DNA of 64,000 nucleotides from Sphingopyxis sp. H053 (lineage in GTDB: Bacteria; Pseudomonadota; Alphaproteobacteria; Sphingomonadales; Sphingomonadaceae): assembly GCF_001468225.1 (NCBI RefSeq), contig NZ_LNRU01000003.1, positions 248,001-312,000 on the forward strand, in the 5' to 3' direction. Both the position numbers and the translations under genes were made by a program. Position 1 is the stretch's first letter. The number at the start of each line of letters is the position of its first letter. This document shows, piece by piece, positions 14,497-34,566 of the stretch. A model generated the notes under the pieces. The model was not told the origin of the DNA. It was given only the letters and a program-made list of their open reading frames with translations, and did no database searches.

Positions 14497-14627
14497 TCAA
14501 CATGCTCCGGACGGGGGGCTAAACGGCCGACCAAGTAGGAGGCAAAAAAGTGATTCACAAGCTATCGGATTAGGAAACTTCTCGCTAGAGAGGGCCTTTC
14601 CGAAATTTGCAGCGCATGGGGACACGC

Positions 14628-15080
14628 ATGATTCGTGACGACATCAAGGCTGCGCAGGTCGCCGCGATGAAAGCCGGCGACAAGGCGCGGCTCGGCACCA
14701 TCCGGCTGATGCTGGCCAAGATCAAGGACAGGGACATCGAGCTCCGCACCGGCACCGCGCCGGCCGACGACGACGTGCTCGTCACCGACGTGCTCCAGAA
14801 AATGGTCAAGCAGCGCCGCGAATCGATCACCATGTTCGAACAGGGCGGCCGTCAGGAGCTCGCCGACATCGAGGCGAGCGAAGTCGCCGTGATCGAGGAC
14901 TTCCTGCCCGCGCAGCTGAGCGACGATGACGCGGCGGCGGCGATCAAGGCGATCGTGGTGGAGCTGGGTGCCGAGAGCCTGAAGGATATGGGCAAGGTTA
15001 TGGCGGCGGTGAAGGACCGGCTTGGGAGCCAACTCGATATGAGCAAGGCGAGCGGGTGGGTTAAGGCGGCTTTGAGCTGA
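14628..15080 (+). CDS. GatB/YqeY domain protein
   Basis: Cytoplasmic protein of 150 aa related to the tRNA-binding tail domain of GatB. It begins MIRDDIKAAQVAAMKAGDKARLGTIRLMLAKIK and ends LGSQLDMSKASGWVKAALS, both typical of stand-alone YqeY. The ATG at 14628 has GGGGA 7 nt upstream; an in-frame ATG 21 nt earlier is less well placed. It commonly precedes dnaG and rpoD in alphaproteobacteria; here a nuclease gene with inverted repeats separates them. Role not established, perhaps tRNA-linked. Confidence 0.9.
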   Translation: MIRDDIKAAQVAAMKAGDKARLGTIRLMLAKIKDRDIELRTGTAPADDDVLVTDVLQKMVKQRRESITMFEQGGRQELADIEASEVAVIEDFLPAQLSDDDAAAAIKAIVVELGAESLKDMGKVMAAVKDRLGSQLDMSKASGWVKAALS

Positions 15081-15099
15081 TCAACTAGCGGCGCTGGCC

Positions 15100-15131
15100 A
15101 CCCCTAACCCCTCCCGCAAGCAGGCGGGGGA
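15100..15131. repeat. Diverged copy of the CCCCTCCCGC palindromic repeat
   Basis: Reads CCCCTAACCCCTCCCGCAAG then CAGGCGGGGG, an imperfect member of the same family as the 36-bp repeats at 15153 and 15552, in the opposite orientation to the 15153 copy. With that copy it forms an inverted pair like the one at 34464-34566. Confidence 0.75.
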
Positions 15132-15152: not shown

Positions 15153-15188
15153 CTCCCCTCCCGCTTGCGGGAGGGGTCGGGGGTGGGC
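15153..15188. repeat. Left 36-bp inverted repeat of the DUF559 unit
   Basis: Perfect reverse complement of 15552-15587. The repeat carries an internal hairpin, CCCCTCCCGC paired with GCGGGAGGGG, followed by a GTCGGGGGTGGGC arm. It ends 10 bp before the DUF559 start codon. Confidence 0.95.
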
Positions 15189-15198
15189 ATACCGACCT

Positions 15199-15591
15199 AT
15201 GATGGACGGACAGTTTCAGCCCCGCGACACGTCGCGTGCAAGGGAGTTGCGCAATGCCGCTACTCCGGCGGAGCGGGCACTATGGCGCTGCCTGTCCGGC
15301 CGAAAAATCGGCGGCTGGAAATTCAGCCGACAGATGCCTGTCGGACCCTATTTCGCCGACTTTCTTTGCCGCGAAGCGCAACTGATAGTCGAACTCGATG
15401 GATACTCGCACGACATGCGCCAAGCCTATGACCAGCATCGGGATCATTGGCTTACAGAAAACGGGTTTCGAGTCCTTCGTTTCACGAACAGTGACGTGAT
15501 GGCGAACGTCGAAGGCGTCGTGAGCGAGATCGAACGCACTCTTGCCCTGCCGCCCACCCCCGACCCCTCCCGCAAGCGGGAGGGGAGTTAA
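15199..15591 (+). CDS. DUF559 domain endonuclease-like protein inside inverted repeats
   Basis: Product of 130 aa of the DUF559 family, related to very-short-patch-repair nucleases with a PD-(D/E)XK-like fold. Visible landmarks are TPAERALWRCLSGRKIGGWKFSRQ, the catalytic strand ADFLCREAQLIVELDG (Asp, then ExD) and a C-terminal HWLTENGFRVLRFTNSDV. The last 13 residues (PPTPDPSRKREGS) are encoded by the right-hand 36-bp repeat. It interrupts the yqeY-dnaG spacing. Biochemical activity of this family is not established; the catalytic residues look intact. An AUG at 15202 is an equal start candidate. Confidence 0.85.
   Translation: MMDGQFQPRDTSRARELRNAATPAERALWRCLSGRKIGGWKFSRQMPVGPYFADFLCREAQLIVELDGYSHDMRQAYDQHRDHWLTENGFRVLRFTNSDVMANVEGVVSEIERTLALPPTPDPSRKREGS
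15552..15587. repeat. Right 36-bp inverted repeat of the DUF559 unit
   Basis: Exact reverse complement of 15153-15188. It encodes the C-terminus of the DUF559 protein, and its GGGAGGGGAG end is the ribosome binding site of dnaG, 4 bases before the GTG start at 15592. Confidence 0.95.
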
Positions 15592-17481
15592 GTGAGCCTT
15601 ACCCCGCAATGGCTGGACGAACTGCGCTCGCGCGTGACGCTGTCGACGCTCATCGGGCGGACGGTGAAGGTCACGCGCGCGGGTCGCGAGTATAAGGCGT
15701 GCTGTCCCTTCCATAACGAGAAGACCCCCAGCTTCACGATCAACGACGAGAAGGGCTTCTACCACTGCTTCGGCTGCAGCGCGCATGGCGACGCGATCCG
15801 CTGGATGACCGACCAGCGCGGCCTCAGCTTCATGGACGCGGTGAAGGAGCTTGCCGCCGAGGCCGGGATGGAGGTCCCCGCCGCCGATCCGCGCGCCGCG
15901 AAAAAGGCCGAAGAGGCGGCCAGCCTGCGCGATGTCGTACAGGGCGCGGCCGATTGGTTCACGCAACAGCTCGGCAGCAGCAACGGTGCGCCGGCGCGTG
16001 AATATCTGACGAAACGCGGCATTTCGGACGCCACGCGCAAGGCCTTCGGCTTCGGCCTCGCCCCCGAGAGCCGGAGTGCACTGAAAGAGGCGCTCAAGAA
16101 ATTCCCGACTGCGATGCTCGTCGAATCGGGGATGCTCATCGCGGTCGACGACAAGGAACCCTACGACCGCTTCCGCGGCCGGCTGATGATCCCGATCCGC
16201 GACGCGCGCGGACGCGTGATTGCGTTCGGCGGACGCATATTGGGCGATGGCGAACCCAAATATCTGAACTCGCCCGACACGCCTTTGTTCGACAAGGGCC
16301 GCGTCCTCTACAACCTCGACAAAGCGAGCCCGGCGTCGCGGCAGACGAACCGGATTATCGTCGTCGAAGGCTATATGGACGTGATCGCACTCGCCGAAGC
16401 GGGGATCGCCGACGCCGTCGCGCCGCTCGGCACCGCGCTGACCGAAGCGCAGCTTGGGCTGATCTGGCGGATGGTGCCGGTGCCGGTGCTATGCTTCGAC
16501 GGCGATGCCGCGGGGCAGAAGGCGGCGATGCGCGCCGCGATGCGCGCGCTGCCCCTGCTCCGCCCGGGCTTCAGCCTTGCCTTCGCAACGCTGCCGGCGG
16601 GGCAGGATCCCGACGATATCGTCCGTGCACGCGGTGCGGAGGGGTTCAACGCGATCCTGAGCGAAACGCAGCCGCTCGTCGAGCGCCTCTGGGCGCATGA
16701 GGTCGCGGCGGGGCCGCTCGCGACCCCCGAGGAACGCGCCGCGCTCAAGACGCGCCTCCTCGCGCACGCCGATGCGATCGAGGACGCCGACGTCCGCCAC
16801 CATTATCGCGAGGCGTTCCGCGAGCGGCTCGATCTGCTGTTCGCGCGCAAGCAGCCCGAGCGCGCGCAGCGCCAGCCGTGGACGCCGAACCCGCCGCGTG
16901 GAGGCGGCAATCGCCGCTTCGGCCCCGACCCGCGCTTGCAACCTCCGGCCGACGAGACGCGTTCCATCGGACAGGCCGGGATTTCGGCGCCTTATGTCGC
17001 GGCGTTGATCGGCGGATTGCTGCGTTACCCCGAAGCGCTCAGGCGCAACGAGGAGGCGCTGACGCGGCTGCCGGTGAGCGATTCAGGCGACGCCGAACTG
17101 CTCGGCGTAATGCTTGACAGCGCAATGCGTCAGGAAGGGCTTGATTGCGAGGGGTTGCTTGCCATATTGGAGCCAATGAAAGTGTATAATAGGGCGATGA
17201 CATTGCTCAGAGCCGACGGAATGCACTTCTCGTTCAATCGCAGGCTGGAAAGCAAGGAAGAGGCCGCAGCGGCGCGGGAAACGGCGCTTCGCGACCTTGA
17301 CGAATATATCGGCGTGCTGGTGACCCAGCCCGAAATCCGGGAGCGGCTTGCCGAAGCCACCGCGGATTTCCAGCGCACGATGGACGACGAAGGATTCGCG
17401 CGGCAGCAGAAGCTGTCCGCCATGGATAAAGAATTGACCCGCCGCCTGGCTGCGCTGTCCGAAGACAGCAACCAGAGCTGA
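15592..17481 (+). CDS. dnaG: DNA primase
   Basis: Synthesises RNA primers at the replication fork. The 629-aa product has the N-terminal CHC2 zinc ribbon (C38, H41, C59, C62), a TOPRIM catalytic core ([12 protein letters not shown] near 257 and [12 protein letters not shown] near 303) and a C-terminal DnaB-binding helical domain. The GTG start immediately follows the DUF559 stop and uses the purine-rich end of the inverted repeat as Shine-Dalgarno sequence. rpoD follows 29 bp downstream, so replication and transcription initiation factors share a transcript, the classic macromolecular-synthesis arrangement. Confidence 0.97.
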
Positions 17482-34463: not shown

Positions 34464-34566
34464 CCCCCTCCCGCTTGCGGGAGGGGTCGGGGGAGGGTCT
34501 GTCTATGCAAACTGCCGACGGTGGAAGGACATGCCCTCCCCTAACCCCTCCCGCAAGCGGGAGGGG
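34464..34566. repeat. Inverted pair of CCCCTCCCGC palindromic repeats without a gene between
   Basis: Two copies of the same family as the 36-bp repeats flanking DUF559, at 34464-34498 and 34532-34566, inverted and separated by 33 bp. They lie between the convergent PilZ and recG genes. This is the empty counterpart of the DUF559 unit. Confidence 0.88.

Follow-up and report, generated by a model that had tools for sequence, protein, structure and literature searches.

What is a nuclease gene doing between two exact inverted repeats in the gap between yqeY and dnaG, and does it have any bearing on the repeats that enclose it? The arrangement lies in a 64,000-nucleotide stretch of the Sphingopyxis sp. 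H053 genome (contig NZ_LNRU01000003.1, positions 248,001 to 312,000), hereafter the window. A first-pass annotation, made from the letters of the window, had seen in it a possible nuclease-driven repeat element with a REPtron-like layout, which would be new and would belong to sphingomonads. We followed up this reading computationally. The features concerned are listed below in window positions.

14607..15080, plus strand: putative yqeY, the upstream host gene (an ORF; name from the first-pass annotation; homologue in 56 of 60 genus genomes)
15093..15129, minus strand: solo diverged repeat copy, in the same orientation as the right arm (family D1)
15153..15188, plus strand: left arm, consisting of a hairpin (15155-15176) and an inner purine tail (15177-15188), a candidate third strand of an intrastrand triplex
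15199..15591, plus strand: DUF559 nuclease gene, 130 aa, predicted PD-(D/E)XK/Vsr-like fold, with its 3′ end within the right arm
15552..15587, minus strand: right arm, consisting of an inner tail (15552-15563) and a hairpin (15564-15585); exact reverse complement of the left arm
15592..17481, plus strand: putative dnaG, the downstream host gene (an ORF directly after the element; name from the first-pass annotation; same neighbour in relatives)
34465..34566, no strand assigned: gene-less inverted pair, a REPIN-like copy (hairpins 34465-34486 and 34545-34566, tails inward)

The two arms are perfect inverted repeats (36 nt, 100% complementary, 363 nt apart), and both the ORF list and a profile match place a single gene between them, the DUF559 ORF; no transposase lies between the arms, where DUF559 is the sole ORF. 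Each arm is itself a hairpin with a perfect 22-nt core, as had been noticed, and the left arm folded as single-stranded DNA gave -11.3 kcal/mol (z -2.09). The arm has two parts, the perfect hairpin outside and a purine-rich tail inside; in the window element, the purine stem GGGAGGGG carries the tail GGGGTGGG. The inner 12 nt beside each hairpin behave as a conserved part of the repeat and are a candidate third strand, and the last residues of the DUF559 protein are encoded by the right arm itself; the first-pass annotation held neither point. The stop codon of the ORF follows the right arm immediately, with the dnaG start next to it at 15592. The diverged upstream copy and the gene-less pair that had been pointed out both exist, and the former, mapped at 15093-15129, pairs with the left arm at 86% complementarity (pair I2). 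The element does split yqeY from dnaG, a short gap being found instead in five of 30 genus genomes.

Performing a profile search, we identified the window ORF as DUF559 (PF04480, E=9.8e-38). Its nearest named relative is a Sphingopyxis protein that is 89% identical, and the domain is a common one, with a PF04480 match in 112 of 299 Pseudomonadota genomes. Compared with known structures, the A3 profile matched the endonuclease-like protein 3hrl (6.5e-37), the homing endonuclease I-Bth0305I (3r3p, 2.5e-4) and, weakly, Vsr (E 0.62). A Foldseek search with the predicted model (pLDDT 80.5) returned 3hrl (1.7e-7), 3r3p (5.7e-4) and a weak match to Vsr 1vsr (0.26). In an alignment of 33 sequences, D54, E65, D67 and H71 were invariant. 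As modelled, the window protein has a Vsr/PD-(D/E)XK nuclease core; I-Bth0305I we take to be of the EDxHD family. At least one DUF559 member is active in vivo, since the Caulobacter DUF559 protein VsrA is needed for the SOS response of cells that have no cytosine methyltransferase (PMC12907096). Two other roles were considered and rejected: PADLOC gave DUF559 only weak matches to a defence system (DpdF, E 0.018 and 0.001), and, as to phage or plasmid cargo, the relatives in 4 phage and 53 plasmid records were all below 60% identity.

The repeat is not a new one. Judged from their letters, the arms are an intrastrand-triplex motif, with a pyrimidine arm, a loop, a purine arm and an inner purine tail mirroring the purine arm. 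Such a G/C-rich motif of pyrimidine arm, purine arm and third purine strand, earlier named BoxC or PIT and now TM, was already known from E. coli in the 1990s and occurs in more than 260 genomes (PMC4666352). The same paper reports 23 intergenic/dispersed copies in E. coli K-12, five inverted pairs and a stable triplex in vitro (CD/NMR) for the E. coli motif, with no function established; its authors saw no tie between that motif and transposons, phages or plasmids. A base-triple constraint predicts that stem and tail covary, and we observed that they do. The tail perfectly mirrored its own stem in 171 of 302 arms, compared with 236/2853 for swapped stems and 27/300 on the outer side, and stem variants came with matching tails (GGGAGAAGG/GGATGAGGG, GGGGGAAGG/GGATGGGGG and GGGAGAGGG/GGGTGAGGG). 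We read the tail as a candidate third strand; 131 of the 302 arms are without a perfect one. In the loci L007, L019, L001 and L003, an extra hairpin is seen between the stem and the third strand (a bottle-brush form), in gene-less and gene-bearing copies alike.

We checked how the repeat is distributed in the window genome. The 22-nt pattern, with up to 3 mismatches allowed, has 43 copies in the 5.13 Mb, and the reversed control pattern has 0. Nine gene-less pairs with a spacing of 71-95 bp were found, with tails inward in the pairs that were read. Four DUF559 genes were found in this genome and all four lie inside inverted palindromes, which belong to three sequence families. The arms are 36 nt long with 100% complementarity in the window element (L002), 32 nt with 100% in L001, 31 nt with 100% in L003 and 25 nt with 96% in L004; they stand 363-417 nt apart, and DUF559 fills that space. 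In the stem-match lists, the only inverted pairs 250-2000 bp apart were the four that hold DUF559 genes. Each stem kind is also dispersed in the genome as gene-less copies, and the dispersed copies of the L001/L003 kind keep the stem without the inner AGGGGCCC extension.

The enclosure of DUF559 genes by inverted repeats is not peculiar to this genome. Scoring ungapped inverted repeats (+1/-2, 260-nt flanks, threshold at least 16), we find that 75 of 114 DUF559 loci from 299 Pseudomonadota genomes reached the threshold, compared with 1 of 545 control windows set at shifted positions of these loci. These 114 are the best-scoring matches (30 ready, 4 own and 80 fetched), lower-scoring listed ones being left aside; among the matches examined, three were dropped, two for lying at a contig end and one for an internal stop. 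A scan of named genomes gave 62 of 79 usable loci with a score of 16 or more against 0 of 422 shifted windows, taking the best 80 of at least 569 loci; several matches from other phyla in this set come from metagenome-assembled genomes, in which a contig may be misplaced. When the pooled loci were re-scored with ORF-based coordinates (L240 being unusable), 140 of 193 DUF559 loci passed; among neighbouring ORFs 9 of 738 did, and among those shorter than 700 bp, 1 of 412. DUF559 genes are therefore flanked far more often than neighbouring genes, in keeping with what the first-pass annotation had supposed. Of 194 DUF559 genes, 179 had a purine/pyrimidine hairpin no farther than 300 nt away on one side or both (20 of 263 control ORFs), and 128 had one on both sides (2 of the control ORFs). 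Where a 3′ hairpin was present (154 cases), the end of the DUF559 frame fell in it, past it or at most 40 nt before it in 134.

The supposed restriction to sphingomonads was not borne out, because the association recurs in other phyla with other stems. Metagenome-assembled Chloroflexota loci scored 28 (L285) and 20 (L298), and a Fidelibacterota locus scored 19 (L276). On plasmids of Cyanobacteriota and Deinococcota, similar repeats were seen by eye on at least one side of all eight DUF559 loci, weakly so at L377 and L378. The strict hairpin rule called five of these eight, and the inverted-repeat scores were 40 for L380, 47 for L382 and 53 for L384. That rule misses diverged repeats, and the repeats recognised by eye, here and at ycjD below, stand outside the statistics. 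The cyanobacterial plasmid genes L377, L378, L379 and L383 adjoin DUF1156 genes or a BREX PglX gene, and at L377 and L378 DUF559 possibly interrupts a gene. The 53 of 193 DUF559 loci below the two-sided threshold look like scattered losses or degraded ends, because the DUF559 tree shows no clustering of two-sided repeats (44 changes against 46.8 when shuffled).

We then asked whether the dispersed copies follow the nuclease across genomes. We counted the pattern CCCTCYCCCN{2,7}GGGRGAGGG in the 299 Pseudomonadota genomes, calling a DUF559 match strong at E < 1e-10. At least 10 TM copies were present in 49 of 86 genomes with a strong match, in 1 of 26 with a weak match and in 5 of 187 with none. 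Set against all others (6/213), the strong group differs with p 6e-26; kinship is uncorrected in these counts, and the 49 genomes span 18 family codes. The repeats thus gather in genomes that have DUF559, which was the other expectation of the nuclease-driven reading. Of the 86 DUF559 genomes, 37 fall short of 10 copies of this single pattern, 16 of them lacking it altogether; the stems of some families are different ones, for instance CCTTCTCCC in family f10. Five genomes have at least 10 copies without a credible DUF559 (G018, G049, G054, G173 and G215), and the DUF559 search can miss genes, as the E. coli control went unmatched although K-12 has a DUF559 gene. Genome G246 has 144 TM copies and no strong DUF559 match; where G226, a genome that shares its genus code, has a DUF559 gene (L071), it keeps a truncated 3′ remnant of DUF559 with a truncated repeat (L386). 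From this comparison, G246 appears as a genome whose nuclease is gone and whose repeats are left.

The kind of repeat also goes with the kind of protein. On the DUF559 tree (157 labelled loci), stem class changes 49 times; in 200 shuffles the mean was 86.5 and the lowest value 79. Within genomes, DUF559 pairs of the same stem class are more alike than the others (49.7% vs 45.8%; 17 vs 27 pairs from 17 genomes; permutation p 0.0035). These comparisons indicate that the DUF559 protein and its repeat evolve together, the within-genome effect being small and the across-tree result partly a species effect.

RAYT/Y1 was rejected as the mobiliser in this genome and as a correlate in general. PF01797 (Y1) has no match at E<=0.001 in the window genome, and TM copies do not correlate with Y1_Tnp, the RAYT/IS200 domain, across the 299 genomes (28 of 155 with it, 27 of 144 without; p 0.88). 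At the Y1_Tnp loci themselves, none of 21 usable (of 30) had a two-sided repeat of at least 16; these loci are not a fair RAYT benchmark, because the best-scoring matches are probably of IS200 type.

The gap between yqeY and dnaG was surveyed in the best 30 of the 56 genomes with YqeY (among 60 genus genomes; the window genome included), the occupant types being assigned by eye. The window type of DUF559 was present in five, its own genome counted, and a second DUF559 type, whose arm has another tail, in ten. Another ten had a GIY-YIG protein between unrelated palindromes, and in the remaining five the gap was 52 bp long and kept a hairpin remnant. Mapped onto a tree of the yqeY and dnaG flanks, the occupant switches 16 times, as often as with shuffled labels (mean 16.1, minimum 10 in 500 shuffles); this tree is weakly resolved (4 starred branches, one long row, L196), and recombination of the flanks could add changes. 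The sisters L199 and L201, well supported on it, have different occupants. On Deinococcus plasmids of two species, related DUF559 elements (L381 and L382; 98 of 112 residues identical) sit at different junctions of one hpa operon. From the turnover at both places, occupants therefore come and go. The 30 gaps yielded no clean empty site: by eye, the five short ones keep a hairpin remnant. Comparing filled with short gaps by eye, we saw no target-site duplication. Two occupants may be decaying, since the GIY-YIG gene of L189 is apparently frameshifted (46 aa in frame) and the DUF559 copy of L200 possibly so, by eye.

The GIY-YIG protein in this gap matched PF01541 with E 1.4e-15. It was found in L181, L183, L184, L185, L188, L189, L191, L201, L202 and L206, flanked by inverted CCGTTCGTGTCGAGCGAAGTCGAGACA... 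palindromes, and some of its relatives have CTTCGACAAGCTCAGG-like repeats. Two-sided repeats of at least 16 were present at 10 of 28 usable GIY-YIG loci (of 30, L317-L346) and at 0 of 56 controls; L338-L346, nine among the most distant loci fetched, had none. GIY-YIG and its palindromes form a possible second, independent pairing of nuclease and repeat. PADLOC gave no match for the protein, and of its repeat strings only the 12-nt CTCAGGATGAGG matched in the literature, in papers unrelated by title. The window genome (G000) has several matches, for example at C7:333743-333856, to the C-terminal, repeat-encoded part of the GIY-YIG protein alone (~75-79% identity), and among the matches listed, those to the nuclease part are remote (~40%), so that these look like repeats without an evident close nuclease.

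The same association can be followed into E. coli. In K-12, ycjD (NC_000913, 1351407-1351760) is annotated DUF559. An imperfect TM motif overlaps its stop codon, and a full 37-nt TM motif lies 166 nt downstream; the strict hairpin rule calls neither. The 37-nt motif has matches in 5377 of 5426 E. coli genomes, at a median of 19 places. In three genomes of family f43, which are probably enterobacteria, the motif stands in arrays on the 3′ side of DUF559, and a 5′ arm is missing.

Taking these observations together, we favour, as probable though far from settled, an autonomous palindromic-repeat element with DUF559 as its sole gene, in which the nuclease is the partner that spreads TM repeats, much as a RAYT, an unrelated enzyme, does for its REPINs. 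The DUF559 protein would recognise its own repeat when this is extruded as a hairpin or triplex, and would cut or nick there. Repair of the break would copy the repeat to new sites, usually as gene-less pairs or singles and sometimes with the nuclease gene; alternatively, the repair would exchange the occupant of an existing site. The association and the turnover are what was observed, and from these two we infer that the repeats are mobilised and that DUF559 would do the recognising, cutting and copying. A wider reading is that endonuclease-driven, transposase-free mobile palindromic repeats are a general bacterial class, with DUF559 serving BoxC/TM in at least five phyla and GIY-YIG independently serving the CTCGACTTCGCTCGAC- and CTTCGACAAGCTCAGG-type repeats. 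E. coli BoxC would then be the footprint of YcjD, and the triplex its recognition signal. We put this forward tentatively, at slightly less than even confidence.

The nuclease could instead be a homing parasite, in which case something else spreads the repeats, and DUF559 cuts gene-less pairs and is copied into them with the arms as homology. After 3hrl, the nearest fold is that of the homing endonuclease I-Bth0305I; the occupants of the yqeY-dnaG gap swap among DUF559 types, GIY-YIG and short remnants; and GIY-YIG is itself a catalytic family of homing endonucleases. If DUF559 were nothing but a parasite, however, some repeat-bearing genomes should be without it, and TM is rare without DUF559 (5 of 187 genomes with at least 10 copies) and unlinked to Y1_Tnp, so that the candidates tested offer no other spreader. 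We regard homing as unlikely.

Less likely still, replication errors would spread TM, and DUF559 would be kept nearby as a caretaker that resolves replication-blocking hairpins or triplexes. The gene does stand beside a repeat array in the three f43 genomes, TM has been tied to genomic instability in E. coli (PMC4666352), and the requirement for VsrA in the SOS response of Caulobacter without the methyltransferase (PMC12907096) would suit such a role. It leaves unexplained why the gene is enclosed by inverted copies, why one genome has several DUF559 genes with different arms and why the occupant of one site changes; we think it improbable. An ordinary small gene with terminator-like hairpins, or a passenger of a transposase-less transposon, whose repeats have no functional relation to the nuclease, is very improbable: the gene does end in one of the arms, and these are G+C-rich hairpins, but other short ORFs at the same loci show the pattern in only 1 of 412 cases, it recurs in other phyla with other stems, DUF559 fills the 363-417 nt between the arms in all four elements of the genome, and PIT elements are reported to have no terminator activity (PMC4666352).

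The element favoured here, with DUF559 as the spreader, may be set beside known systems. A REPtron consists of a low-copy RAYT (TnpA-REP) gene with REP/REPIN repeats (PMC3116915), and the likeness in layout is real: one low-copy nuclease gene lies between inverted palindromes, gene-less single and paired copies are many, and the repeat correlates with the nuclease lineage. However, the window enzyme is PD-(D/E)XK/Vsr-like (PF04480) by prediction, whereas that of the REPtron is HUH Y1 (PF01797), and the window repeat is a purine/pyrimidine triplex motif. REP palindromes carry a GTAG/CGTC tag at the foot (PMC3733652). Of the 43 copies we checked 15 for such a tag, of either kind and on either strand, no more than 8 nt from the hairpin, and one had it. 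The element is therefore REPtron-like and not a REPtron, because neither the enzyme family nor the repeat tag fits.

Insertion sequences and MITEs have inverted ends and exist in autonomous and gene-less forms. The window element shares the inverted ends and the forms with and without a gene; it differs in having no transposase and in that each end is a hairpin, and by eye no target-site duplication was seen. With I-Bth0305I (3r3p) and Vsr (1cw0/1vsr; a weak match) it shares the nuclease core; unlike in those systems, no intron or intein was seen around the window gene, and the arms are a dispersed repeat. The turnover at yqeY-dnaG would be compatible with a homing endonuclease cutting, and being copied into, an allele without the element. 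VsrA has the same domain as the window protein and a link to DNA damage in vivo, but is read in PMC12907096 as mismatch repair tied to cytosine methyltransferase; the word "inverted" does not occur, and repeats are not discussed, in the available text of that paper.

The BoxC/PIT/TM motif of PMC4666352 agrees with the arms in its stem, loop and mirror third strand, its inverted pairs and its dispersal, and one K-12 copy stands beside ycjD; the difference is that the motif here encloses a gene. The main text of that paper names no protein partner, and DUF559, endonuclease, Vsr and ycjD are absent from it. In the titles and abstract openings of papers containing the word DUF559, with preprints outside the scope, we found no link between DUF559 and a palindromic repeat. 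Both parts were known already; within that literature, the link of DUF559 to TM is apparently new, joining a nuclease to a dispersed palindrome with an enzyme unrelated to RAYT and a different DNA structure.

DUF559 is thus a strong candidate for the enzyme that spreads TM repeats. The link joins a common nuclease domain whose role was unexplained with repeats that were orphans, and makes both testable together in E. coli K-12. If true, it would add a transposase-free class to repeat systems of the RAYT/REPIN kind, and it may be a case of a non-B DNA structure kept by selection as a substrate.
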